From Gemmatimonadota bacterium (GTDB lineage Bacteria; Gemmatimonadota; Gemmatimonadetes; Longimicrobiales; Gaopeijiaceae), in contig JBBEBG010000007.1 of the NCBI GenBank assembly GCA_040882465.1, forward strand, positions 34,210 to 77,346: a stretch of DNA of 43,137 nucleotides. Direction: 5' to 3'. Positions 27,465 through 43,033 of this stretch are shown here, piece by piece. The position numbers and the translations under genes are program-made. The notes below the pieces were generated by a model. The model was not told the origin of the DNA. It ran no database searches and saw only the letters and a list, made by a program, of their open reading frames with translations. How positions within the stretch are numbered: the first letter of the stretch is position 1; the number at the start of each line of letters is the position of its first letter.

Positions 27465-27712
27465 GAACGCCGCCGCGGTGTAATAGGAACGGGACTCGAA
27501 CCGTTTCGCATGCAGTGTAACCGGCGCTCGGGCGGCACGCCATCAAGTTCACAAGGCGCTCACACTTTCGCGGCCGGGTCGCCTTGCCGCGCCGGATCGC
27601 GGAGCCTTACGTTCGAGTGAGCGCCAGTTGCGTGGTCCTCGCGGCTCCCCCGCCTGCCGGCCGGATCCGAAAAGCGGTTGGTCTCGCACCCCGACTCCGA
27701 AGCGGCCTGTCC
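27465..27712. other. Gap upstream of the MoxR-type operon, no gene seen
   Basis: This 248-base stretch separates the leftward small Cys-rich protein from the rightward DUF4159 gene and must hold the operon promoter if transcription starts here. A GGGACTCGAACC string at about 27490 looks like a tRNA T-arm on the other strand, but no cloverleaf can be built. No clear -35/-10 pair stands out. Confidence 0.3.
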
Positions 27713-28615
27713 ATGTCCCGATCGGCGACGACGACCCCCCTTCCGGCACGCTCCGGACTCGCCGGCGGAGTGTGTGCCGAGGGGAGGGCGGGCCGGTGGC
27801 CGTGGGTCGCGCTTTTTTTGGCCGCCGCCGTTTCCCTTCCCGCGGAGCGGGGGGAGGCCCAGCGGCTCCGGGGATTCGGCGAGGCGCCGATCTCGCAGCC
27901 CTTGCGGCGAGGGCTTCCCGAACGTCCGGGCGGCTTTACTTTTTGCCGCCTCTGGTTCGACTCGGTACGGTACGAAAGCGACGGGTACGGGTGGAGCACG
28001 GATTATCCGCGGGGCGACTTGAATTTGACGCTCCGCCTCTCCGAGCTGACGACCGCCTCGATCAGCGGATGGCTCGACGGGGACCAGGGGACGGCCGCTC
28101 TGCGGGCGACCGACCCGAACCTCTTCCAGTGCCCCTTCCTTTTCGGGTCGGACGTGGGGACGGCAGGGTTCTCGAACGCGGAAGTCACGGCGCTGAGGGA
28201 ATACTTCCTCAAAGGCGGCTTTCTCTGGGTGGACGACTTCTGGGGGACGCCGGCGTGGCGACAATGGTCTGCGGAGATGGCGCGCGTCCTCCCCGAATAC
28301 CCGATCGTGGACCTCCCCCTCGATCATCCGCTCTTCGGAATCGTCTATACGGTAGAGAAGATCCCCCAGATCTCGCACATGCAGTACTGGAGAAACTCGG
28401 GAGGACAAACCTCGGAACGGGGATGGGACAGCGCCGAGCCGCACCTCCGCGCGATCCTGGACGAACACGAAAGGATCCTCGTTCTCATGAGCCATAACAC
28501 CGACATCGCGGACGGATGGGAACGGGAGGCCGACGACGCCGCATTTTTCGCCCTCTTTTCGCCGCAGGCTTATGCGATCGGAATCAACGTCCTGGTCTGG
28601 ATTATGACGCACTGA
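27713..28615 (+). CDS. DUF4159 exported protein, first gene of MoxR/VWA operon
   Basis: A 300-residue protein with a hydrophobic, probably cleaved N-terminal segment (PWVALFLAAAVSLPAERGEA, about 34-53) and a DUF4159 domain. Seen: FTFCRLWFDSVRYES, WSTDYPRGDLNLTLRLSELT, the NAEVTALREYFLKGGFLWVDDFWG block typical of the family (a GATase-like fold), LPLDHPLFGIVYTVEKIPQISHMQYW and the C-terminal YAIGINVLVWIMTH. DUF4159 proteins regularly travel with MoxR, DUF58 and BatA-like genes, as here. Function is unknown; a ligand-binding or scaffold role at the periplasmic face is inference. The ATG at 27713 precedes the signal but has no good ribosome site; an in-frame GTG near 27770 is another option. Confidence 0.8.
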   Translation: MSRSATTTPLPARSGLAGGVCAEGRAGRWPWVALFLAAAVSLPAERGEAQRLRGFGEAPISQPLRRGLPERPGGFTFCRLWFDSVRYESDGYGWSTDYPRGDLNLTLRLSELTTASISGWLDGDQGTAALRATDPNLFQCPFLFGSDVGTAGFSNAEVTALREYFLKGGFLWVDDFWGTPAWRQWSAEMARVLPEYPIVDLPLDHPLFGIVYTVEKIPQISHMQYWRNSGGQTSERGWDSAEPHLRAILDEHERILVLMSHNTDIADGWEREADDAAFFALFSPQAYAIGINVLVWIMTH

Positions 28616-28752: not shown

Positions 28753-31119
28753 ATGCAATCATTCTTCGACGCAGTTTTCGAGTACTTCTTCAAGTATCCT
28801 CGCGTTGCGTACGACCGCGGGGAGATCGTCTGGAGCGGATCGTGGCCTACGATCCTCCTCGCCCTTCTCCTCGCCGTCGGGGTGGCCCTCGTCGTCTGGA
28901 GCTACTTGTCGAGCCGTGCGCGCGCAGCGGGCGCCACGACCTGGATCCTCGTAACGACCCGCGCCATCGGACTCGCGATCCTCACGGTCTGTCTGCTGCG
29001 CCCGACGCTCGTCCTCTCCACGGCCGTTCCTCAGCAGAACGTCGTGGCCGTCCTGGTGGACAACTCCCGGAGCATGGGAATCCAGGACGTGGATGGCCGC
29101 TCACGCGGCGCTGTCGCCCAGGAGCTCTTCGCCGCGCCGGAAAGCGCGCTCCTCGAACAGCTCGAGGAGAACTTCGTGATCCGGCAGTTCCGCTTCGACT
29201 CGAACGCCGCCAGGCTTCGCGATCCCGCAGATCTCGCCTTCGACGGAAACCGGACCCTCCTCGGGCCCTCGCTCGACCTCGTGCGGAGCGAGCTGGCGGG
29301 ACTTCCCCTCGCCGGGTTGGTCCTGGTCACCGACGGGGGCGACCAGAACGCGGCCGCCCTCGAAGACGCTCTCCTCGGGCTCCGTGCCGAGGGAATTCCG
29401 GTGCATGTCGTGGGCGCGGGACGCTCCCGCCTCGATCCGGATGTGGAGATCGAGCGGGTCGAGCTCCCTCGGGCCGTGATGCGCGGCTCGACGGTCATGG
29501 CCAACGTCGTCGTCGCGCACACGGGACTCGGTGGACGCAACGTCGCGGTGAACCTGGAAGAAGACGGTCGGATCCTCGCCTCCGAAAACGTCCAGTTCGA
29601 GGGGTCGGGGGGGAGCACGACCGTCCGGATTCCGGTGACGCTCGAATCTCCGGGGGTGCGCGGGCTCACCGTCCGGGTCGCGGCCCAGCCCAACGAGGTC
29701 GTCGCCGACAACAACCAGATGGATGTGCACATCCGCGTCCGCGACGAGCGGGACAAGATCCTTTATTACGAAGGCCAGCCCCGATTCGAGGTGGGATTCC
29801 TGCGGCAGGCCGTCCGTGACGACCAGAATCTCCAGGTCGTGGTCCTCCAGCGCACGGGCGAAGACCGGTACGTTCGCCTCGACGTGGACAGCGGGGACGA
29901 GCTCGCGGGCGGCTTTCCGAGGACGCGCGAGGAGCTCTTCGAGTACCGCGGGCTCGTCCTGGGGAGCGTGGAGGCGAGCTCGTTCACGCCGGATCAGATC
30001 CGGATGATCGCCGACTTCGTGGATCGCCGGGGGGGAGGGCTGCTCTTCCTCGGAGGCCCGCGCGCCCTCGCCGAAGGGGGGTGGACCCCGACCGCGCTCG
30101 CTCCGGTTTATCCGCTGGAGCTCGAGAATCTTGGACCGGACCGCTCGGGCACGGTGGACTTCTGGGCGACGGTGAAGGTGACTCCGACCCGGAACGGAAT
30201 GACGCATCCGGCCCTGGGGCTCGAAGGCTCTCAGGTGGAGATGGACCCGGGGGGCGCCGCTCCCGCGGCCGTGGTGGCGACCGATTCGGAGGACGCGCGG
30301 ACCGCCCGCTGGGACCGCCTCCCCGAGCTCACCACTGTGAACCGGATGGGAGAGCCGCGCCCGGGGGCGACCGTCCTCCTCACCGGAGTGAGCCCGGACC
30401 TCCCGGGCGGAGAGCAGCCGGTTCTCGCCTTCCAGCGTTACGGCGCGGGGATGGCCGCCGTCCTCGGCGTGCATGACACCTGGCTCTGGCAGATGCACGC
30501 GGACATTTCGCTCGAAGACCAGACTCACGAAGTCTTCTGGCGACAGATCCTCCGCTGGTTGATTCAGGAGGTCCCCGATCCCCTCACCGCGACCGCCGTG
30601 CGGAATCGGGTCGCACCCGGAGAGTCGGTGCAGCTGATCGTGCGGGTGTCGAGCGAGGAATTCCTTCCCGTGAACGACGCGCGGGTCACCGCACGCGTCA
30701 TTGATCCCTTCGGTGCGGAGCAGGAGCTCCCCCTCTACTGGAATCTGGACCGCGACGGGGAGTACCGGGGATCGTTCCTTCCGGCGAGCTCGGGGCCCTA
30801 CGAGGTTCAGGTGGACGCGGTTAGGGGCGAGACCTTTCTGACGGCGCCTCCCCTTCACATCGAAGCGGGCGTGCTCGACGAGGAGCTGCGGAGCGGTGCG
30901 ATGAGGGAAAACCTCCTCCGGCGAATCGCGACCGAGACCAACGGGGCTTTCTACACGCTCGACCAGGTCTCCTCGCTCCCGCAAGCGCTCACGTACACGG
31001 AACGCGGAACCGTCGTCCAGGAGGAACGGGATCTCTGGGATCTTCCCCTCTTCTTCTTTCTCCTCATGGGTCTCCTATTCACCGAGTGGATGGTGCGCCG
31101 GCGGAGGGGGCTCGCGTGA
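28753..31119 (+). CDS. Membrane-anchored VWA / glutamine-amidotransferase-like protein
   Basis: A 788-residue membrane protein. Two N-terminal helices (about 30-50 and 61-82) are followed by a VWA domain with a MIDAS metal site: DNSRSMG at 103-109 and TDGGDQ at 193-198. Ig-like segments follow (RVAAQPNEVVADNNQ). A class I glutamine-amidotransferase-like fold spans about 335-600 (DKILYYEGQPRFEVGFLRQAV, DFVDRRGGGLLFLGGPRALAEGGW), without a catalytic Cys in the elbow. Another beta domain precedes a C-terminal helix (LPLFFFLLMGLLFTEWMVRRRR). This order matches large BatA-like/DUF4159-associated proteins. The MIDAS implies metal-dependent partner binding, probably recruited by the MoxR ATPase encoded downstream. 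The stop overlaps the next gene (GTGA at 31116-31119). Confidence 0.85.
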   Translation: MQSFFDAVFEYFFKYPRVAYDRGEIVWSGSWPTILLALLLAVGVALVVWSYLSSRARAAGATTWILVTTRAIGLAILTVCLLRPTLVLSTAVPQQNVVAVLVDNSRSMGIQDVDGRSRGAVAQELFAAPESALLEQLEENFVIRQFRFDSNAARLRDPADLAFDGNRTLLGPSLDLVRSELAGLPLAGLVLVTDGGDQNAAALEDALLGLRAEGIPVHVVGAGRSRLDPDVEIERVELPRAVMRGSTVMANVVVAHTGLGGRNVAVNLEEDGRILASENVQFEGSGGSTTVRIPVTLESPGVRGLTVRVAAQPNEVVADNNQMDVHIRVRDERDKILYYEGQPRFEVGFLRQAVRDDQNLQVVVLQRTGEDRYVRLDVDSGDELAGGFPRTREELFEYRGLVLGSVEASSFTPDQIRMIADFVDRRGGGLLFLGGPRALAEGGWTPTALAPVYPLELENLGPDRSGTVDFWATVKVTPTRNGMTHPALGLEGSQVEMDPGGAAPAAVVATDSEDARTARWDRLPELTTVNRMGEPRPGATVLLTGVSPDLPGGEQPVLAFQRYGAGMAAVLGVHDTWLWQMHADISLEDQTHEVFWRQILRWLIQEVPDPLTATAVRNRVAPGESVQLIVRVSSEEFLPVNDARVTARVIDPFGAEQELPLYWNLDRDGEYRGSFLPASSGPYEVQVDAVRGETFLTAPPLHIEAGVLDEELRSGAMRENLLRRIATETNGAFYTLDQVSSLPQALTYTERGTVVQEERDLWDLPLFFFLLMGLLFTEWMVRRRRGLA

Positions 31120-32159
31120 GCCGGTACTTTTTCGTCGGCTCTGCGGGAAGCGCGGCGCGCGCCATTTTCGCACCCCTCCTCTTCGCCGTGGTCGCGCTCG
31201 GGGGAATGGCCGTCCCCGGGGCGGCCCAGGAAGCTCACGTCCTGATCGTGGCGGGGCTCGGCGGAGAGCCGCAGTATCGGGAGTCCTTTCTCGAGTGGGG
31301 AACCCAGCTGAGCGATGCAGCCGTGGAAGCGGGGGTGAAGCCGGAGAACCTGATCTTCCTCGCGGAGGATCCCGAGACCGGCCATGGGAAGGTCCGGGCC
31401 CGCTCCACACGCGAAGAGATCGAACGCGCCTTCCGTGAGACCGCGGAACGAGCGGCCCCCCAGGACCGGGTCCTGGTGGTTCTCATCGGGCACGGAACGG
31501 GGTCGGGGGAAGAGTCGAGGGTGAGCATCCCGGGACGAAGTCTGACCCTCGCGGACTACCGCGGATTCCTCGAGCTCCTCGCCCCGCGCATGGTCGCCTT
31601 CGTGAACGTGGCGAGCGCGAGCGGCGATTTCGCTTCGGCGCTCGCGGGCGAGGGCCGCGTCGTCGTGACGGCGACACGAAGCTCCCAGCAGAGGAACGCG
31701 GCGATCTTCGGAGGCCACTTCGTGAAGGCCTTTATAGGAGAAGGCGCCGACCTCGACCGCGACGGTCGCGTCTCGATCCTCGAGGCCTTCGAATTCGGTC
31801 GATTGGAGACGGAGCGCCACTATCGTGACCGCGGGCTGATCTCTCCGGAGCAGGCCCTCCTGGAGGACCGCGCCCAGGGGAGCGGCGTTCCCCTCCCGAT
31901 GGAGGACGAAGCCGTCGGGACCCTCGCCGGGCGCTTTTTCCTGGAGAGCGTGGTCCCCGCCACAGTGGCGGGCGATGCAAGCGCGGAGCGGCTCCGCGAG
32001 CTCTACCTCCGCCAGGAAGCGCTCGAGGTCGAGGTCGCGGCGCTCGGCCAGCGCCGGGGGACGATGGAGCCCGCCGCTTACCAGGCGGCGCTCGAACCCC
32101 TCCTTCTCGAGCTCGCGACAGTCGGACAGGAGATCCGCCGCCTCGAGGAGGGACGATGA
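31116..32159 (+). CDS. Caspase/legumain-fold secreted protein with EF-hand, catalytic Cys apparently absent
   Basis: A 347-residue protein with a signal peptide (hydrophobic about 17-33, cleavage near GAAQ 38). The core resembles C13/C14-clan peptidases: HVLIVAGLGGEP first strand, RVLVVLIGHGTGS with His126 at the catalytic-His position, and VAFVNVASASGDF at 160-172 where active members carry DxCxSG. Here no Cys follows, so peptidase activity is doubtful. Residues 212-223 form a canonical 12-residue EF-hand loop (Asp212, 214, 216, Gly217, Ser220, Glu223), inserted before LEAFEFGR. A C-terminal helical segment (RLRELYLRQEALEVEVAALGQRR) looks coiled-coil. The GTG start overlaps the upstream stop and has GGAGGGGG before it; the end overlaps the next gene (ATGA). 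A calcium-sensing pseudo-peptidase is inference. Confidence 0.75.
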   Translation: MSRYFFVGSAGSAARAIFAPLLFAVVALGGMAVPGAAQEAHVLIVAGLGGEPQYRESFLEWGTQLSDAAVEAGVKPENLIFLAEDPETGHGKVRARSTREEIERAFRETAERAAPQDRVLVVLIGHGTGSGEESRVSIPGRSLTLADYRGFLELLAPRMVAFVNVASASGDFASALAGEGRVVVTATRSSQQRNAAIFGGHFVKAFIGEGADLDRDGRVSILEAFEFGRLETERHYRDRGLISPEQALLEDRAQGSGVPLPMEDEAVGTLAGRFFLESVVPATVAGDASAERLRELYLRQEALEVEVAALGQRRGTMEPAAYQAALEPLLLELATVGQEIRRLEEGR

Positions 32160-34822
32160 CCGGCCGTCCTCGCGCACGTTTTCTCCTCCTCCTCTTCGGA
32201 CTCCTTCTCGGCGGATGCGTCGGGAGCGACCGCGCGACCGCGCAGGGGCCGGAGGGGGCCGCGGCCCTTCTGCAGGAGGGCAACTACGACGAGGCCATCT
32301 CCCTCCTCGAGCGGGAGCGCGCCGCGGCACCCGGCCCCCAGTCCACCCGCGCCCTCGCCTCGGTTTTCCTCGAGGCAGGCCGTTACGACGACGCCGAGGC
32401 GCTGCTGAGGGATGCCTCGGAAGGGACGGACGATGCCGAACTCCAGCTCCTCCTGGGCCGATCGTTGTTGCAGCGCGGCCATCTCGATGAAGCGGATCGG
32501 GTGTTCGCCGCGGCGGCGGCGGGAACGGGGGGGGCAGCGCTCCTAGCCGAGATGCACCGGGGGGAGATCCTCCTTCGCCGGGGAGAGCGGGAGGCGGCGC
32601 TCGCGCTCTTCGATCGATTCATAGACGTCTACAACAACTCGTCCTCTCTCGGGTCGCGCGAGCTCCAGGCGGTGGCGGCCGCGGTGGCTCACCTCGGCAT
32701 CACGAACCCGGCACTCTACCAGGACGCCCTGATGGCCTACGACGAGGCGATCGCGGCGGACCCCGAAAATCTCGAGGCGCATCTCGAGCTCGGCTTCCTC
32801 TTCCTGGAGCGGTACAACATCCCCGACGCGATCGCGTCCTTTCGCGAGGTGCTTCGCCGGCGTTCCCGCCAACCGATGGCGCTCTACGGGCTCGCCGAAG
32901 CGGCATACCTCGAGGGCTCGGAGGAGGGCGCGCCCCTTTTGGACGAAGCCCTGAGCGCGAACCCCAATCTGGTCCCCGCCCTGATTCTCCGCGCCCGGAG
33001 CCAGCTCGGGGCCGAGGAGGTCGAGGCTACCGAGCGCGACCTCGCGTCGGCGCTCGATGTGGACCCGACCGCGACCCAGGCGCTCGCCGTACTTGCGGCG
33101 ACCCGCCTCCTCCAGGGGGAGACCGAGGACTTCGAGTCCATCGTGGACCGCGCGCTCAGGATGAACCCGCGCGACGCGGCTTTTTTCGTCACCGCGGGCG
33201 AGCTCGCCTCGCGGGGAAGGTTCTACGAGGAGGCCGCCGAGCTCGCCGTGAAGGGCATCGGGCTAGACACGCTCGCCTGGGACGCATATGGGACTCTGGG
33301 GATGAACCTGCTTCGCCTCGGAGCGATGGAGGAGGGGCGCGCCAACCTGGAGATTGCCTTCGATGGAGACCCTTACAACGTCTGGTACAAGAACACCCTC
33401 GACCTCCTCGACACGATGGAGGGGTTCGAGTCGTACAGCTCTGACCGGATCCGCGTTTACGTGGACCCTGAAGACGGTGAAGGGCTCGCGCTTTACATGC
33501 TCGACGTCGCGGAACGGGCTTACGCGGAGCTGGCCGAGCGGTACGGGTACGCACCAACGCCACCGATCCGCGTCGAGGCGTTCCGGCGGAGCGGCGACTT
33601 CTCCGTCCGCACCTTCGGGCTCACCGGGATCGGCGCACTCGGTGTGAGCTTCGGAAACGTCCTCGCCATGGATTCGCCGGCGGCGCGAGGGACCGAGGGA
33701 TTCCATTGGGCCTCCACCCTCTGGCACGAGATGGCCCATGCCTTCCACCTGGGGATGACGGATCACCGCGTACCTCGGTGGTTCAGCGAAGGCCTGGCGG
33801 TGCACGAGGAGCGGCGGGCCGGCCCGGGCTGGGGGATGCGTCCTTCCATTCCCTTCTTCGCGGCTTACGAGGAGGGCGAGCTTCGCTCGCCGAGCGAGCT
33901 AAGCCAGAGCTTCGTCCGGCCGCGAAGCCCGGATGAGGTCGGGTTCGCGTACATCATGGGCTCGCTGGTCATGCTCTGGATCGAGGAGGAGTGGGGAGCC
34001 GACGCGATCCTCGGAATGCTGGAGGGATATCGCAACCGGACGAGTCCCGACGAAGTGATCCGGAGTCGGTTGGACCTGAGTCTCGCGGAATTCGACCGCG
34101 GCTTCGACGCCTGGCTTCGCGACCGATACTCCGGGGGGTTCGCCGCGGCGCGCGCGGCACTGGAGCTTCGGGAGACTGGGCCCCAGCAGCGAGGGGATGT
34201 CGACTGGCTCAGGGAGCGGGTGGCGCAAGCCCCGAACGATGTGGAAGCTCGTATCGCGCTCGCGGCGGTCCACTTCGATGAGGAGCGTTACCGGGAGGCG
34301 ATCGCCCCCCTCTTGGAGGCGCGCGACATTTTCCCGGAAAATCCGGATCCCAGGGGACCGAATCGATTCCTCGCGGAGGTCTACCGGGAGCTTGGTGATT
34401 CGGACGCGGCCGTGGAGGCCCTCGTCGAGCACCTCGCCCAGGCGGCCGGCGACTACCGGGCCCAGCTCCTTCTGGCCGATCTCTTCGAGGAACGGAACGA
34501 CTCGGAACGAGCGGTCGGTGCACTCGAAGAGGCGATCAACGTCTATCCATTCGAGATCCCGGTGCACGAGCGGCTCGCGCTCCTTTACCGGGAGATCGGG
34601 AATGCAGGCGGTGAGGTGAGGGAGCGGAAGGCGATTCTCGCGCTGGATCCGGTGGACCGGGCCGGCGCCCTCTATGAGTTGGCGCTGGCGCAGCTCCGCG
34701 ACGGGGATCGAGGTGGGGCGAGGACGAGCGTGATGGGTGCGCTGGAACTCGCCCCCCGCTTCCCCGAGGCTCAGGACCTCCTCCTCGAGATCATGCAGGG
34801 GGGCGCGCCGAACGGCCGGTGA
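32156..34822 (+). CDS. TPR lipoprotein with peptidase-MA-like (gluzincin) domain
   Basis: An 888-residue lipoprotein: LLLLFGLLLGGC with lipobox Cys21. Residues about 35-420 are tetratricopeptide-type helical repeats (NYDEAISLLERE, GRYDDAEALLRDA, GHLDEADRVFAAA, NIPDAIASFREVL). A peptidase-MA-like domain follows: DRIRVYVDPEDGEGLALYMLDVAERAYAELAERYG, then the zinc site HEMAH at 524-528 with a third ligand Glu545 in WFSEGLAVHEE. More TPR-like repeats run to the C-terminus (RYREAIAPLLEARD, DSERAVGALEEAI). The zinc site is intact, so this is the active-looking protease of the operon. It probably sits on the periplasmic face of a membrane by its lipid anchor. It is co-translated with the caspase-like gene. 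Confidence 0.88.
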   Translation: MTGRPRARFLLLLFGLLLGGCVGSDRATAQGPEGAAALLQEGNYDEAISLLERERAAAPGPQSTRALASVFLEAGRYDDAEALLRDASEGTDDAELQLLLGRSLLQRGHLDEADRVFAAAAAGTGGAALLAEMHRGEILLRRGEREAALALFDRFIDVYNNSSSLGSRELQAVAAAVAHLGITNPALYQDALMAYDEAIAADPENLEAHLELGFLFLERYNIPDAIASFREVLRRRSRQPMALYGLAEAAYLEGSEEGAPLLDEALSANPNLVPALILRARSQLGAEEVEATERDLASALDVDPTATQALAVLAATRLLQGETEDFESIVDRALRMNPRDAAFFVTAGELASRGRFYEEAAELAVKGIGLDTLAWDAYGTLGMNLLRLGAMEEGRANLEIAFDGDPYNVWYKNTLDLLDTMEGFESYSSDRIRVYVDPEDGEGLALYMLDVAERAYAELAERYGYAPTPPIRVEAFRRSGDFSVRTFGLTGIGALGVSFGNVLAMDSPAARGTEGFHWASTLWHEMAHAFHLGMTDHRVPRWFSEGLAVHEERRAGPGWGMRPSIPFFAAYEEGELRSPSELSQSFVRPRSPDEVGFAYIMGSLVMLWIEEEWGADAILGMLEGYRNRTSPDEVIRSRLDLSLAEFDRGFDAWLRDRYSGGFAAARAALELRETGPQQRGDVDWLRERVAQAPNDVEARIALAAVHFDEERYREAIAPLLEARDIFPENPDPRGPNRFLAEVYRELGDSDAAVEALVEHLAQAAGDYRAQLLLADLFEERNDSERAVGALEEAINVYPFEIPVHERLALLYREIGNAGGEVRERKAILALDPVDRAGALYELALAQLRDGDRGGARTSVMGALELAPRFPEAQDLLLEIMQGGAPNGR

Positions 34823-34969
34823 GGCCGGCAGTCCAAAGGAGTGTGGGTGGGATGGTGGCCGGGCGACGCTCGTCGGCGATGCCGGAATCCTAGAAGCGGG
34901 AAATAGCGGGGGTCCGGAGTGGCCGGCCCCCCTTCGGACCAACGTGTGGGCGACGCCCCAGGAGGCCTC

Positions 34970-36007
<1,038 letters not shown>

Positions 36008-36026: not shown

Positions 36027-36971
36027 ATGAGCGTCGGACACGGTTGGGGCCGGGGGCAGGTCGGGCCAGGGGCCCGTTTCCTCGACCCCGTCGTCCTCCA
36101 GCGGATCGGAAGCCTCGAGCTCGTGGCACGGAGCGTCGTGGAGGGCTTCATGCAGGGGCTCCACCCCTCCCCCTTTCTCGGGCAGTCCGTGGACTTCGCG
36201 GAACACCGCCCCTACACGGTCGGCGACGATCCACGGCGGGTGGACTGGCGCGTTTATGCGCGCACGGGCCGGTACTACGTAAAGGAGTTCGAGGCCGAGA
36301 CGAACACGAACTTCACCGTCTACATGGATACCTCGCGCTCCATGGCGTTCGGGGAGCCGGTGACGAAGCTCGACTACGGGAAATTCCTCGCGGCCAGCCT
36401 CGCCTTCCTCGCGAGGCGGCAGGGAGACCGGGTCGGGTGCATCACCTTCGACCGGGGAGTGCGCGACGTCGTCCCCTGCTCCGCACGGCATCTGGAGCGA
36501 GTCCTCCTCGCGATCAGCCGCGCGAAGGCGGAGCGCTCCGGCGACCTCGCCCCCGCGCTCCGGGACGCAACGGGTCGGCGAGGCCGGAAGGGGATCATTG
36601 CGATCGTCAGCGATCTCTACGTGGAGCCGGAAGAGCTTCGGCTCCCGATCAGGCGTCTTCGCGAGATGGGGAACGACGTCATGGTCTTCCACATCCTCGA
36701 TCCCGCCGAACGCGAGCTCCCGTACGAAGGTCCCTTCACCCTCGAGGACATGGAGACGGGAGAAGTCCTTCCACTCGTCCCCAAGGAGCTGAAGGAAGAG
36801 TACCGGAATCTCGTGACGGCGCACGTCGCGAAGGTGGCGAAGGTCCTCGCGGGCTCCGGGGCGGACCATATCCTGGCGGATACTTCGCGGCCCCTCGACC
36901 AGGCCCTTTTCCACTACCTACTCGCGCGACAGTATCGTAAGCGCAGCGGACGATGGGCCTCTCCTTCCTGA
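36027..36971 (+). CDS. DUF58 / VWA-like protein
   Basis: A 314-residue soluble protein of the DUF58 family. The signature block FAEHRPYTVGDDPRRVDWRVYARTGRYYVKEFEAE lies at about 58-92. A VWA-like fold follows with MDTSRSM as a MIDAS-type motif near 100 and DFAPAL-type SGDLAPALRDATGRRGRKGIIAIVSDLY. The C-terminal part has the family's ILDPAERELPYEGPFTLEDMETGE. DUF58 proteins accompany MoxR ATPases almost everywhere and likely are their direct partners. It begins 20 bases after moxR and its last 19 bases overlap the next gene, a tight operon. Confidence 0.9.
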   Translation: MSVGHGWGRGQVGPGARFLDPVVLQRIGSLELVARSVVEGFMQGLHPSPFLGQSVDFAEHRPYTVGDDPRRVDWRVYARTGRYYVKEFEAETNTNFTVYMDTSRSMAFGEPVTKLDYGKFLAASLAFLARRQGDRVGCITFDRGVRDVVPCSARHLERVLLAISRAKAERSGDLAPALRDATGRRGRKGIIAIVSDLYVEPEELRLPIRRLREMGNDVMVFHILDPAERELPYEGPFTLEDMETGEVLPLVPKELKEEYRNLVTAHVAKVAKVLAGSGADHILADTSRPLDQALFHYLLARQYRKRSGRWASPS

Positions 36972-39163
36972 CCCCCCTCTTCCTCGCCGGGCTCCTCGCG
37001 ATCTCGGTGCCGATCTTCATCCACCTGATCCGCAGGCATCAGGGGAAGAAACTCGACTTCCCTTCCCTGATGTTCCTGCGCCAGCTCCCGGTGCGGTCGG
37101 TGAAACGGCTCCGGGTCCGCGATTGGCCCCTCCTCCTCCTCCGCGCGGCCGCGCTCGCCCTGATCGTCCTGGCTTTCGCGCGCCCGGTCCTTCAGATCGG
37201 CGCGCAGGAAGAGGGCGTCGGAGGCGACGGGCTCCGAGAAGTCGTCGTGGTCCTCGACCGGTCCTGGAGCATGACGCGCGGCGATCGTTGGGATGACGCA
37301 CTCGGTGAGGCGCGTGACGTCCTGAACGGGTTGGTGGCGCCCGATCGGGTGGCTCTCGTCGTCTTCGACGCGTCGGGGCGGGTGGTCGTCGAACCGACCC
37401 TCGAGCCCGGTCGGGTGGCCGCGGCCCTCGACACGATCCGGGCCGGCTGGGGGGGCACGCAGGTGGGCGCGGGGCTTCAGGCCGCGCGCGGGATTCTCGA
37501 GGCCTCGGAGCGGTCGCGCAGGGAAGTCGTCCTGATCTCCGACTTCCAGCTTCGGGGTTGGGAAGAGGGCGTGCATGAACAACTCCCGGCGGGAACCACT
37601 CTTGTCCCGGTGGATGTCGGGGACGACGGGATCGGCTCGCTCATCGTGTCGGACGTGACCCTGGAGCATTCCTTCTTCGAAGGGCGCCAAAGGGTGCATC
37701 CGCAGGTGCGGATCATCCGGAGCGGCGCGGAGGCGCCCTCCCAGGCCCGGGTCGCTCTGGAAATGGACGGTCGCGAGGTGGAGTCGCGGACGGTCGAGCT
37801 TCCCACGGAAGGCGCGGTCGCCGTGGCCTTCGAGCCGATCACCCTTCCGGATGCCGGAGTCCGTGGCGCGGTGAGGCTGGAGCCGCAGGGAGCGGCGGCC
37901 GAAGAGCCGTTCCGCTTCTTCTTCTCTCCGCAACAGGTACTCTCGATCCTCCTGGTCGAGGGGGCGAACGCGGGCGCGGGGAACAACCCGTACCTACGCA
38001 GCGCCCTTTCGATCGGGGGCGGCCAGGCCGTCCAGGTGCGCACGCGGGCCGGGGGCCAGGTCACCGCCGCCGATCTCCAGGGGACCGACGTCGCCGTTTT
38101 CAGCGATGTCCCGCTCCCCTCAGGGGCCTCGGGATCGCTCCTGCGCGCCTTCATCCGGCAGGGGGGAGGTCTCGTCATCGCGACGGGCGCGGCGAGCACC
38201 CCCGCGACCTGGGAGTCGGACTGGGACGAGTTCCTTCCGGGGGAAGTCGGGATGCCGGTGGACCGGAATCCCCTCCGCGGCGGAACGCTCACGGGTGTGG
38301 ACCGCGACCACCCGATCTTTTCTCCTTTTACGGCGCTCGCGGGGAGCGGCCTCGGAGGCCCGCGATTCTACCGTTATCGGACCCTCGTGCTCCCTCCCGA
38401 GGCGCCGGCCCAGCCGACGCCAGGCGGAGGGGTGGAAGAGGGCGCCCGTCCGGATGTCCCGCTGGTGATCGCGCGCTTCGACGACGGGGCGCCGGCGCTC
38501 GCGGAGCGCACGGTAGGCCTCGGACACGTGCTTCTCTGGACCTCCACGCTCGACAACAGCTGGACCGACTTCCCGATTCACCCGGTCTTTCTTCCGGTGG
38601 TTCAGGAGATGGCCCGGTACGCCGCCTCGGAACGGGAGGCCGAGCCCTACTTCACCGTGGGGCAGCCGCTCGACGCCGAATTTCTCCTCACCGAGGCGGG
38701 AGCCCCCGCGCCGGTCGCGCGGCCGGGCGAGGCCCCAGTTCCCGCACCCCTGGCGATCCTGGTGGGTCCCGACGGCGTCGGAGCCGAGTTGGGCGGCGAG
38801 GCGGGCGATCTCGTCCAGCTCCCCGTGCCCGGGTTCTACGAGGTCCGTCTGGGGGAAGACGGGGCGGACGGAACGCGCACCTTCGCCGCGAATCCGGATG
38901 TCGCGGAAGCCGATCCGACGCGGATCGATCCCCAGGAGTTGATCCTCGCGGTCGCACCGGGGTCGGGGAGCGGGGGCGAAGGAGCGGAGCCGGCCGACGA
39001 CGCGCTGGGCAACGCGGCGGCCGCCGCCACCCTCTTACAGGAAGGAGAGCGCCGCCAGGGCGCGTGGCGGTTTTTCCTCCTCGGGGCGGTCCTCCTTCTC
39101 GTGAGCGAGGCCCTGGTGGCGAGCCGAACCCGACCGCTGAACCGGGCCTTGTTGGAAGAGTAG
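36953..39163 (+). CDS. BatA-like membrane VWA protein
   Basis: A 736-residue membrane protein. Residues 1-80 form the BatA (aerotolerance) N-terminal domain: LTPLFLAGLLAISVPIFIHLIRR, KLDFPSLMFLRQLP, then a second helix LLLLRAAALALIVLAFARPVL. A VWA domain follows with MIDAS DRSWS at 102-106, GGTQVGAGLQAARGILEAS and VVLISDFQLRGW. The middle has Ig-like and GATase-like segments (DVAVFSDVPLPSGASGSLLRAFIRQGGGLVIATG, HPIFSPF). A single helix (WRFFLLGAVLLLVSEALVASR) anchors the C-terminus. The layout mirrors the protein at 28753, which suggests the two are partners or duplicates. It starts inside the end of the DUF58 gene. Confidence 0.9.
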   Translation: MGLSFLTPLFLAGLLAISVPIFIHLIRRHQGKKLDFPSLMFLRQLPVRSVKRLRVRDWPLLLLRAAALALIVLAFARPVLQIGAQEEGVGGDGLREVVVVLDRSWSMTRGDRWDDALGEARDVLNGLVAPDRVALVVFDASGRVVVEPTLEPGRVAAALDTIRAGWGGTQVGAGLQAARGILEASERSRREVVLISDFQLRGWEEGVHEQLPAGTTLVPVDVGDDGIGSLIVSDVTLEHSFFEGRQRVHPQVRIIRSGAEAPSQARVALEMDGREVESRTVELPTEGAVAVAFEPITLPDAGVRGAVRLEPQGAAAEEPFRFFFSPQQVLSILLVEGANAGAGNNPYLRSALSIGGGQAVQVRTRAGGQVTAADLQGTDVAVFSDVPLPSGASGSLLRAFIRQGGGLVIATGAASTPATWESDWDEFLPGEVGMPVDRNPLRGGTLTGVDRDHPIFSPFTALAGSGLGGPRFYRYRTLVLPPEAPAQPTPGGGVEEGARPDVPLVIARFDDGAPALAERTVGLGHVLLWTSTLDNSWTDFPIHPVFLPVVQEMARYAASEREAEPYFTVGQPLDAEFLLTEAGAPAPVARPGEAPVPAPLAILVGPDGVGAELGGEAGDLVQLPVPGFYEVRLGEDGADGTRTFAANPDVAEADPTRIDPQELILAVAPGSGSGGEGAEPADDALGNAAAAATLLQEGERRQGAWRFFLLGAVLLLVSEALVASRTRPLNRALLEE

Positions 39164-39442: not shown

Positions 39443-42400
39443 ATGAACCACCGCGTGGGCGGAAGCGAACGGAGAGAGCTGCGAGACGTCGTCCGGACCG
39501 TGCGGCGCCGGTGGCGAATTCGAAATGCCCTCCGGGGAGGCCTTCTGACCGTCATTTCCGCGGTCGTCGCTCTCCTCGTCGTGAGCTTCGCGATGGACCG
39601 CTGGACCGGAAGCCAGGCCGCGGCGACGGTCTTCGCCCTGGTCCTATACCTCGGTGTCGCCTGGGTTGCCGTCCGCACGCTCTTCCGGCCGATTTTCCGG
39701 AAACTCACCGACCTACAGGTCGCGCATTATCTCGAGGAGAACGAACCCGCTCTCCGTGCCGAAATCCTCACCGCGGTGGGCGCGATGGAGGAGCAGAAGC
39801 TCGAGAGGACGGTTCTCCTCGACGGGCTCATCCGCGCCGCGGTGCTCAGGGCCCGGGAAGTCGAGGGTGGACTCCGCGTGGACCGGGAGCCACTGAAGCG
39901 ACTTTCCTGGGTGAACGCGGGGGTCGCCGCGGTGCTCCTCGCCTTCCTCCTCGTGGATCCGCTCGGGTTCCGGGAGTCCCTCCCGGATCTCGCGCGCCCT
40001 TGGACCGCCGTGGAAGCCGCGAGCCCGCTCGCGATCCAGCTCAACCCGGGCGACACCTCCGTGGCGCGCGGCGCCGAGCTGCGCATCGGCGCCGAGGCCC
40101 AGGGATTCGCGCCGGAACAGGTGGACGTCGTCTACCGGAGCGAGTCCGAGGCGCAGTGGGCGCGGTGGCCGATGCTCGCGTCCGCGGAAGGGACGGCGGC
40201 GTACGAGTTCGTCTTTTTCCGCGTTGACGAGCCGGTCGAATATTACGTCGAATCCGAAGGGATCCGGTCCGGGACGCATACGATCTCCGTGGTGGACCTC
40301 CCCTACGTCTCGCAGCTCGAGATCGAGATCCATCACCCGGCCTATACGGGGCGGGCGCCGGACATCCTCGAGTTCGGGGGGGACATCGTCGTCCTTCGCG
40401 GAACCCGGGTGGTGGTGCGCGCGCACCCGACCATCGCGGTGCCTTCCGGGAAAATCGTCCTCGAGGAGGTGGGAGAGGTAGCGCTCGCCGCCGGGGCCGA
40501 GGGTGTGCTCCAGGGCGAGTTCGTCGTCGAGCGGGCCGGATTCTACCGGATCGAGCTCCAGGACGACGCGGGGCAGATCCATCGAGGGACCCCCGACCAC
40601 CTGATCGATCTCGTCCAGGATCTCCCGCCCCTCGTCTCTTTCGCCCGCCCGGCGAGGGACGTTCGGGTGACTTCGATCGAGGAAGTCTTCGTCCAAGTGG
40701 AGGCGAGCGACGACCACGGGATCGCGATGCTCGAACTCGTCTATTCGGTGAACGCGGGCGAGGAGCAGACGATCGCGCTCCTCAACGACTCGGGAACCCG
40801 CCTCGAAGAAGTCTCCGCGGGGCACACCTTCTTCCTCGAGGAGCTCGAGCTCCAGCCCGGCGACCTCGTCTCCTACTACGCCCGCGCCCTGGACAATGGG
40901 CCCGGCGCGGAGGAGCGCGAAGCCCGCACGGACCTCTTCTTCGTGCAGATCCGGCCCTTCTCCCAGGACTTCCGCCAGGCCGAGCAGGGCCCGGCAGGCG
41001 GCGGGGGGGGCGGTGGAGGCGGCGGCGGTGGCGATCCCCTGGCCGGCCAATTCTCGCAGCGCCAGCGGGACATCGTCACGGCCACCTTCAACGTGGACCG
41101 TGACTGGCGGCGCTCGAATCCAGAACGGCTCGCCGAGGACATCGCCACGATCGCGCAGTCCCAGGCCGCGCTGCAGGGCGAGGTCGAAGCGTTCCTGAAC
41201 GAGCTGCGGCCGCGGCTGGCGCGGATGCCAGTGGAGATGCAGCAGGTCGCCGAGATCCTCCCGGTTGCCACCGAAGCCATGCAGGCCGCCGCACTCGAGC
41301 TCATCGCCCAGCGCCCCCCCGAGGCGTTGCCACCCGAGCAGCGGGCGCTCCAGTTCCTCCTCCGGGCGGAAGCGGTCTTCCGCGAGGTGCAGCTCCAGGA
41401 GCAGCAGGCCCAGCAGGGCGGAGGCGGAGGCCAACAAAACCAGCCGCGCGAAGACCTCGCGGACTTCTTCGACCTCCAGATGGATCGGCTCCGGAACCAG
41501 TACGAGCAACTCCAGCAGGGGGAGCGCCAGCAGCAGAGCCAGCAGATGGACGAGGCGATGCAGCGGCTCCAGGAGCTCGCGCGCCGTCAGCAGCAGGAGG
41601 AGGAGCGCCTCAGGAGGGCCGCGGACCAGCTCCAACAGGGTTCGGCCGCGGGAGGAGAGAGCCAGCGTCGTCTCGCGGAGGAAACGGAAGAGGCCGCCCG
41701 CCAACTCGAACGGCTCGCCCGCGAGCAGGGGTCACAGGAGCTCGCGGAAGCGGCCCGACGGCTTCAGGAAGCCGCCGACGCGATGCGGCAGTCCGCCGCG
41801 GCGCGCGACGCCCGTGGCCTCGGCCAGGCCGCCGCGGCCGCCGACGCGCTCGAAGAGGCCCGTCGCCTCCTCGACCGAAATCAGGAGAACCAGCTCGGAC
41901 AGGCCGTCGAGGACGTGGCGAACCGGGCCCGGCAGGCGCTTCAACGCCAACAGGCGATCGAGGAGGCCGTATCCGAGCTTCCGATGGAGGCGGGTGCGCG
42001 CCAGCAGGCGATCCCCGACATCATCGAGGAGAAAGAGGCGCTCCGGGAGGAGATCCAGCGCCTCGACGAAGACCTTCGCCAGATTTCACGCCAGTCCGCC
42101 GCCGAGGACATGGAGGCGGAGCGCGCTTTCCGCGACGCCGCCGCCGCGATCCGGGACGGGCAGTTGGACGATCGGATCGAATACTCCCAGGACCTCATTC
42201 CCTCGCCCTCGATGGCGGAACGGGCCCAGGAATTCGAGCAGCAGATCTCCGAGCTGGTCGAGGAGATGAACGCACAGGTTCAGCAGGGAGCGCGAGCCCT
42301 GGACGGGCAGGGCCGCGCCGGCGACTCCGAGCTCGCCGACCGGGCCCGCGACCTCATCCGCGGTGCCGAGTCCATGGCCGAACGCACGCGCCAGGCTGCC

Positions 42401-43033
42401 CAGCAGGGGCAGGACGGCCAGCAGCCGGAACAGCGTGGGCTCCAACCCGGCCAGCAGGGGCAACAGCCGGGCCAGGGGCAGCAGGGCGAGCCGCAGCCTG
42501 GACAGGGCCAACAGCCAGGTCAGGGCCAGCAGCCTGGCCAACAGCCGGGCCAGGGGCAGCAGCCCGGTCAAGGTCAGCAGGGTCAGCCCGACGGCCAGCA
42601 GCCCGGCCAGGGCCAACAGGGCGGGCAGCAGAACGCGGGCGGTGGTGGCCCGAACGGCGGTGTGGACGCGGAAACGGTCCGCCAGCTCCAGCGCGAGGCC
42701 GGTGCGCGCCGGGCCGACGCCGAGGCGCTCCGCGACGCGATCCGGGGCCGGACCGACGCCGGAAACTTTGACTGGGTGGACGGGCTCGAGTTCGCCATTG
42801 ACCGTTTCAGCGAGCTCCAAGAGGCCCGCGCCTACGCCGATCCTCGCGACCTGGCCGACCTCCAGCGAGAGCTCGTCGAGGCGCTGAGGGAGCTCGACTT
42901 CGCGCTGCGCCGGGAGTTCGCCACGACCGGAAGGGAAAGCCCGATGGTCGCGGGCTCGGGTGACGTTCCCGAGGAGTATCGCCAGTCGGTGGAGGAGTAT
43001 TACCGCTCACTGGCCGGCGGCTCCCCGCGGTGA
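39443..43033 (+). CDS. DUF4175-like large membrane-anchored coiled-coil protein
   Basis: A 1196-residue protein. Two N-terminal membrane helices (about 32-52 and 57-80) and a third (about 150-166) anchor it. Ig-like beta domains occupy about 190-510, ending SYYARALDNGPGAEEREARTDLFFVQIRPF, the pattern of DUF4175-family proteins. A poly-Gly linker (about 518-532) leads into a very long Gln/Glu/Arg/Ala-rich coiled coil (about 535-985). A Gln/Gly/Pro-rich tract follows (about 986-1064), then a conserved helical C-terminal domain ending EEYYRSLAGGSPR. DUF4175 genes commonly close MoxR/BatA operons. A spacer or scaffold across the periplasm is inference. The ATG at 39443 follows a GGAGAAGG ribosome site. 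It is separated from batA by the inverted-repeat element. Confidence 0.85.
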   Translation: MNHRVGGSERRELRDVVRTVRRRWRIRNALRGGLLTVISAVVALLVVSFAMDRWTGSQAAATVFALVLYLGVAWVAVRTLFRPIFRKLTDLQVAHYLEENEPALRAEILTAVGAMEEQKLERTVLLDGLIRAAVLRAREVEGGLRVDREPLKRLSWVNAGVAAVLLAFLLVDPLGFRESLPDLARPWTAVEAASPLAIQLNPGDTSVARGAELRIGAEAQGFAPEQVDVVYRSESEAQWARWPMLASAEGTAAYEFVFFRVDEPVEYYVESEGIRSGTHTISVVDLPYVSQLEIEIHHPAYTGRAPDILEFGGDIVVLRGTRVVVRAHPTIAVPSGKIVLEEVGEVALAAGAEGVLQGEFVVERAGFYRIELQDDAGQIHRGTPDHLIDLVQDLPPLVSFARPARDVRVTSIEEVFVQVEASDDHGIAMLELVYSVNAGEEQTIALLNDSGTRLEEVSAGHTFFLEELELQPGDLVSYYARALDNGPGAEEREARTDLFFVQIRPFSQDFRQAEQGPAGGGGGGGGGGGGDPLAGQFSQRQRDIVTATFNVDRDWRRSNPERLAEDIATIAQSQAALQGEVEAFLNELRPRLARMPVEMQQVAEILPVATEAMQAAALELIAQRPPEALPPEQRALQFLLRAEAVFREVQLQEQQAQQGGGGGQQNQPREDLADFFDLQMDRLRNQYEQLQQGERQQQSQQMDEAMQRLQELARRQQQEEERLRRAADQLQQGSAAGGESQRRLAEETEEAARQLERLAREQGSQELAEAARRLQEAADAMRQSAAARDARGLGQAAAAADALEEARRLLDRNQENQLGQAVEDVANRARQALQRQQAIEEAVSELPMEAGARQQAIPDIIEEKEALREEIQRLDEDLRQISRQSAAEDMEAERAFRDAAAAIRDGQLDDRIEYSQDLIPSPSMAERAQEFEQQISELVEEMNAQVQQGARALDGQGRAGDSELADRARDLIRGAESMAERTRQAAQQGQDGQQPEQRGLQPGQQGQQPGQGQQGEPQPGQGQQPGQGQQPGQQPGQGQQPGQGQQGQPDGQQPGQGQQGGQQNAGGGGPNGGVDAETVRQLQREAGARRADAEALRDAIRGRTDAGNFDWVDGLEFAIDRFSELQEARAYADPRDLADLQRELVEALRELDFALRREFATTGRESPMVAGSGDVPEEYRQSVEEYYRSLAGGSPR
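42400..42636 (+). repeat. In-frame QPGQGQQ-type tandem tract
   Basis: Within the DUF4175-like gene, degenerate copies of a unit encoding QPGQGQQ or QPGQQ repeat more than ten times. Synonymous codons vary between copies (CAG/CAA, GGC/GGG/GGT), so selection acts on the peptide rather than recent DNA slippage. The result is a flexible, uncharged, probably disordered linker of about 80 residues. Confidence 0.75.

Follow-up and report, generated by a model that had tools for sequence, protein, structure and literature searches.

The window analysed here is a stretch of 43,137 nucleotides from a Gemmatimonadota bacterium (contig JBBEBG010000007.1), and it carries a Bat/MoxR-VWA gene set in which genes for MoxR, DUF58 and BatA/BatB-like VWA proteins occur together. 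Among them lies the gene of a legumain-fold protein without the catalytic Cys, called the Cys-less protein below. The features are as follows.

27584..28615, + strand: ORF of a DUF4159 protein (PF13709, E 2.9e-36), with the true start probably inside
28753..31119, + strand: membrane protein with a BatB-like VWA domain, a GATase1-like domain and a C-terminal TM segment in its model; the near-obligate upstream partner
31116-32159, + strand: gene of the Cys-less legumain-fold protein, 347 aa plus stop, with the frame open throughout
31116..31229, + strand: predicted Sec signal peptide region, residues 1-38, read directly from a hydrophobic run and ..GAAQ/EAH
31488..31496, + strand: GHG, residues 125-127, with the retained catalytic-type His126
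31614..31616, + strand: Ser167, at the position of the catalytic Cys in the hmmsearch and hhalign alignments
31620..31625, + strand: Ser169-Gly170 of the former CxSG motif (S in 119/120, G in 105/120)
31749..31784, + strand: EF-hand-like loop DLDRDGRVSILE, residues 212-223 (12 residues, ligands conserved)
31977..32150, + strand: C-terminal helical hairpin, residues 288-345, outside the legumain-matched part of the model
32156..34822, + strand: TPR protein (TPR families) with an HExxH zinc-peptidase-like motif found by reading
34919..36007, + strand: MoxR AAA+ ATPase (PF07726, E 1.6e-62)
36027..36971, + strand: DUF58 (VWA-like) protein (PF01882, E 8.6e-46)
36953..39163, + strand: BatA-type protein with an N-terminal double TM and a VWA domain (PF07584, E 2.2e-20; PF13519; TIGR02226)
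39443..43033, + strand: DUF4175 protein (PF13779, E 1.1e-10)

The GTG start of the Cys-less protein gene shares the letters GTGA with the stop of the upstream gene, and at the other end its TGA stop and the following gene's ATG run together as ATGA; through these overlaps with both neighbours the gene sits in a tight operon. An alternative, longer in-frame start exists at 31086. The preliminary description, made from the letters of the window, had the frame, coordinates and residue numbers right (His126 in LIGHGTG, VNVASASGDF at 163-172, the loop at 212-223). A hydrophobic run of at least nine residues occurs within the first 45 residues in 29/30 orthologues, and the protein is probably secreted to the periplasm.

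The protein encoded directly upstream was modelled with AlphaFold2 (AF2; pLDDT 88.8). Its VWA domain is closest to Bat structures (4jdu, Z 20.8; 3ibs, Z 20.3), its GATase1-like domain matches 3soz (Z 21.7), and its homologues carry the Pfam families GATase1_like (34/36) and VWA (19/36). The segment joining helices one and two (SSRARAAG) and the C-terminal tail (VRRRRGLA) are both basic, which by the positive-inside rule would place the VWA and GATase domains in the periplasm; together with the Sec-like signal region of the Cys-less protein, this leads us to expect both proteins in that compartment. Of the 115 loci where the sequence extends far enough, 113 have the VWA/GATase gene directly upstream on the same strand, in 112 cases no more than 400 bp away and with a median gap of 53 bp (profile coordinates). 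Of the other two, one is a masked contig and one belongs to a Cys-bearing protein outside the family. When 122 Gemmatimonadota genomes were scanned with the VWA profile, the VWA gene turned up in 64; 61 of these also have the Cys-less gene, and in two of the remaining three the VWA match ends partway along the profile. The link to a VWA/MoxR operon, which had been read from the window, is thus stronger than the single stretch could reveal. An apparent fusion of the two proteins at one locus (L220, G323:C386) was rejected; the join reads out-of-frame and the second part begins with a separate start and signal peptide, which makes a frameshift in the shared open frame more likely.

Synteny extends beyond the pair, which is flanked by the DUF4159, TPR, MoxR, DUF58, BatA-type and DUF4175 genes in both Gemmatimonadota and Acidobacteriota. 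These are the phyla that were systematically searched and from which the family is known; three sequences with Gammaproteobacteria titles (L145-L147) were discarded as evidence of a wider spread, as those of L145 and L147 have the scores of Gemmatimonadota genomes, L147 also has the same contig coordinates, and the titles are probably mislabelled. In a second, paralogous pair in Acidobacteriota (L214/L226, L216/L224, L217/L225, L218, L219 and L267), the genes run BatA-DUF4175-VWA-Cys-less protein. The motif of this group is NTT[SAGE]AS[FA]PF, and Gly170 is often lost too. The downstream TPR protein reads WHEMAHAFHL...WFSEGLAVHEE between its TPR blocks, and no Pfam peptidase family matched it at threshold.

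The preliminary description had proposed a caspase/legumain-like protein, and the predicted structure confirms the caspase-hemoglobinase fold. The AlphaFold2 model, built from 30 aligned sequences with 36-58% identity to the window protein, has a pLDDT of 88.1, and legumains are its top PDB matches in Foldseek. In VIA-align, legumain 4nol superimposes with Z 22.1 and an rmsd of 2.3 Å over 205 residues, followed by metacaspase-4 (Z 20.9); a SAVED-CHAT chain lies below legumain at Z 16.6, a comparison of folds rather than with a CHAT profile. The matched part spans about residues 37-282. The C-terminal hairpin beyond it contains Tyr322, the second most conserved column of the family, and is a likely interaction surface.

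Taken by itself, the window protein has no match in Pfam, including PF01650, PF00656 and EF-hand, or in PHROGs; searched singly against the PDB and NCBIfam, it gave chance matches to proteasome ATPases only. PF01650 is weakly matched by 17/30 orthologues, and one orthologue (G130) exceeds the cut-off; PF00656, the p20 domain, matches 1/30 (E 2.3e-4). The genome to which the window belongs has no C13 or C14 peptidase, and no PF01650 match, over cut-off.

Two independent profile alignments identify Ser167 as the counterpart of the legumain Cys nucleophile. In an hmmsearch of the family profile against the PDB, legumain IEACESGSM aligns with the family strand NTASASGGF such that Cys falls on Ser167, and an hhalign comparison with three C13-like proteins of Acidobacteriota and Gemmatimonadota that carry the Cys (probability 99.0, E 7.2e-18, 201 columns) likewise places Cys opposite Ser167, two residues before Ser169-Gly170. 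Conservation was assessed on 120 representatives at 75% identity from Gemmatimonadota and Acidobacteriota, including divergent Acidobacteriota members and the paralogous subfamily. His126, already noted as retained, is invariant (120/120) and ranks first among 317 columns. The Cys reported as missing from the strand at 163-172 is indeed absent, and none occurs at the nucleophile position anywhere in the family: position 167 is S in 100 representatives, T in 8, A in 5, P in 3 and G, N, E or D in one each, and among the 122 unique sequences it is S in 97, T in 21, P in 2, D in 1 and A in 1. The family is therefore a clan CD case, extending over two phyla, in which His is kept and Cys is lost. 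Two divergent members (L253 and L277) have a Cys at 168 (TTCSG, TSCSG), one residue past the nucleophile position.

The loop at 212-223 fits D-x-D-x-D-G-x-V-S-x-x-E at each position. D212 and E223 are present in 120/120 non-redundant homologues, position 214 is D or N in 120/120 and position 216 is D, N or S. In the model it lies between helices 197-207 and 221-238 as a single helix-loop-helix; the Pfam EF-hand profile weakly matches 10/30 orthologues. Cys-bearing clan CD relatives from the same phyla have EF-type loops as well: in L181, ADSDGDGQISAIELSQYV follows DACFSG by 55 residues, and GAADASSDGRVTLSEA (L269), NADTSQDCVVSMKEA (L268) and DADTNNDGRISIVEA (L275) lie at the equivalent place. 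Since the loop also follows the Cys in these relatives, it is an inherited and probably structural feature. The EF-hand claim of the preliminary description therefore stands with respect to a real and conserved loop, but its wording 'calcium-responsive' is unsupported, as the loop is shared with Cys-bearing relatives.

The reading that we favour, with a probability of about 0.68, is that of a pseudo-peptidase that does not cut and serves the VWA/GATase protein in the periplasm as a scaffold or as a partner that binds peptides, with a structural Ca2+. At the base of the family, Ser would have taken the place of the nucleophilic Cys in a legumain/C13-type domain that retained His and the surrounding pocket. 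We infer that the protein is exported and lacks activity, and that it serves as a secreted binding module for a peptide or protein. With its C-terminal hairpin and/or the former substrate cleft it would dock onto the membrane protein of the upstream gene, at the VWA/GATase-like portion in the periplasm, and it would belong, as a subunit, to an envelope assembly of the MoxR/Bat type that works as a chaperone or in quality control. The Ca2+ ion most likely sits in the EF-hand-like loop. The conservation of His126 suggests that the pocket has kept a use, which would be binding or, with lower probability, Ser/Thr chemistry.

The residue at 167 bears on the pseudo-peptidase claim in both directions. 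The alignment of orthologues at 165-169 that had been proposed as a check was run and returned no Cys at 167 in 120 representatives, but a hydroxyl residue in 108 (Ser 83%, Thr 7%). Because a purely structural protein could dispense with a top-ranked His126 and with a hydroxyl in 108/120, a Ser- or Thr-based activity has to be considered, namely an active clan CD enzyme, a hydrolase or a transferase, whose nucleophile has been exchanged and in which Ser or Thr 167 would act with His126 as the base. The pocket is otherwise well kept (S169 119/120, T187 119/120, R181 115/120), and in the maximum-likelihood tree Ser predominates at 167 and is apparently the basal state, with the Cys-bearing relatives outside the family; their long branches make the rooting tentative. 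Nevertheless, we consider this enzyme unlikely. Column 167 ranks just 47th in conservation, and Ala, Pro, Gly, Asn, Glu or Asp replaces the hydroxyl residue in 12/120. The tree places these changes in at least about seven lineages; among the members concerned, L016, L021, L023, L236 and L126 have D, P or A and belong to the main cluster. The lineages keep the gene, the cluster and an unchanged His126, which argues against an obligatory Ser nucleophile. Moreover, a known His-Ser homologue, the metacaspase TbMC1 of T. brucei, is classed as inactive (PMC6426788). The claim of a pseudo-peptidase thus holds as regards the absent Cys and the lineages without a hydroxyl, while the Ser/Thr substitution keeps a Ser-based activity under consideration. 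It is improbable that the family as a whole represents a natural Cys-to-Ser/Thr swap within clan CD, working as a periplasmic amidase or transpeptidase with Ca2+ and coupled to the MoxR/Bat VWA machine.

It is very improbable that a working peptidase uses another nucleophile such as Ser169, although this residue is kept in 119/120. Ser169 corresponds to the Ser in the ancestral CxSG motif; relatives that look active have it after their Cys as well (ILDSCASG, LEPCFSG, MEQCYSG), so that its conservation is best seen as inherited and structural. The loop could also make the protein a calcium sensor that switches with Ca2+ and signals to the VWA/MoxR system. Its ligands D212, D214, D216, S220 and E223 are almost invariant in the family, and most orthologues have a second loop of the DDNGDG type (LDDNGDGxGS). 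Such sensing is quite unlikely, since the EF-type loops of the Cys-bearing relatives make the loop no novelty of the family and the window protein has a single one, its second being degraded to LLEDRAQGSG (less so in its nearest relatives).

Comparison with known systems distinguishes the Cys-less protein from each of them. It resembles legumain/C13 (clan CD) in fold (Z 22), in the position of His and in the CxSG-like turn with Ser-Gly kept; it differs in having no Cys and no PF01650 match, in its additional C-terminal hairpin, and in being bacterial, probably exported and encoded in a MoxR/Bat cluster. Cys-bearing bacterial C13/C14-like proteins (L268, L272, L275, L228 and L269-L271 among the examples) share with it HG, the GPNR-type strand, the EF-type loop and the (P)QYEDNGDG-type tail, but they keep Cys, and L275, the sole one in the neighbourhood analysis, has no upstream VWA/GATase gene. 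In the pseudo-orthocaspases (C14B p20) of cyanobacteria and Alphaproteobacteria, Cys became Ser and the proteins are widely conserved without the dyad; they are absent from reaction-centre-II-bearing Gemmatimonadetes (PMC6426788). They usually lose His too (YS, YA, FS), whereas the Cys-less family keeps it, and they were not reported from the cluster described here. Bat (Bacteroides aerotolerance)/MoxR-VWA operons have MoxR, DUF58, BatA-type, BatB-like VWA and TPR genes in common with the window; for the Bat clusters of Leptospira and Bacteroides, the sections consulted of one study describe no caspase-fold subunit (PMC3557215). EACC1-caspase and MoxR-vWA conflict systems combine caspase-like domains with MoxR-vWA (eLife 52696, PMC7159879); the caspase there is a peptidase effector, unlike the Cys-less protein as read here, and NF047832 is weakly matched by just 3/30 members of the Cys-less family. 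Both Cys-less caspase homologues and caspase-like effectors in other MoxR-vWA systems are thus already known. A literature search, with most subscription journals outside its scope, found no paper on the Cys-less family or its cluster, nor one on DUF4159 or on MoxR together with legumain.

MoxR/Bat VWA clusters are widespread. The study of Bat clusters cited above concludes that the function of Bat 'remains elusive' (PMC3557215). The family adds to clan CD a family-wide, cross-phylum example of a protein in which His is kept and Cys is lost. As a near-obligate subunit with a protease fold, the Cys-less protein provides a concrete handle on Bat-type VWA systems, in which it may be the peptide-recognition part, with a pocket that is open to mutation.
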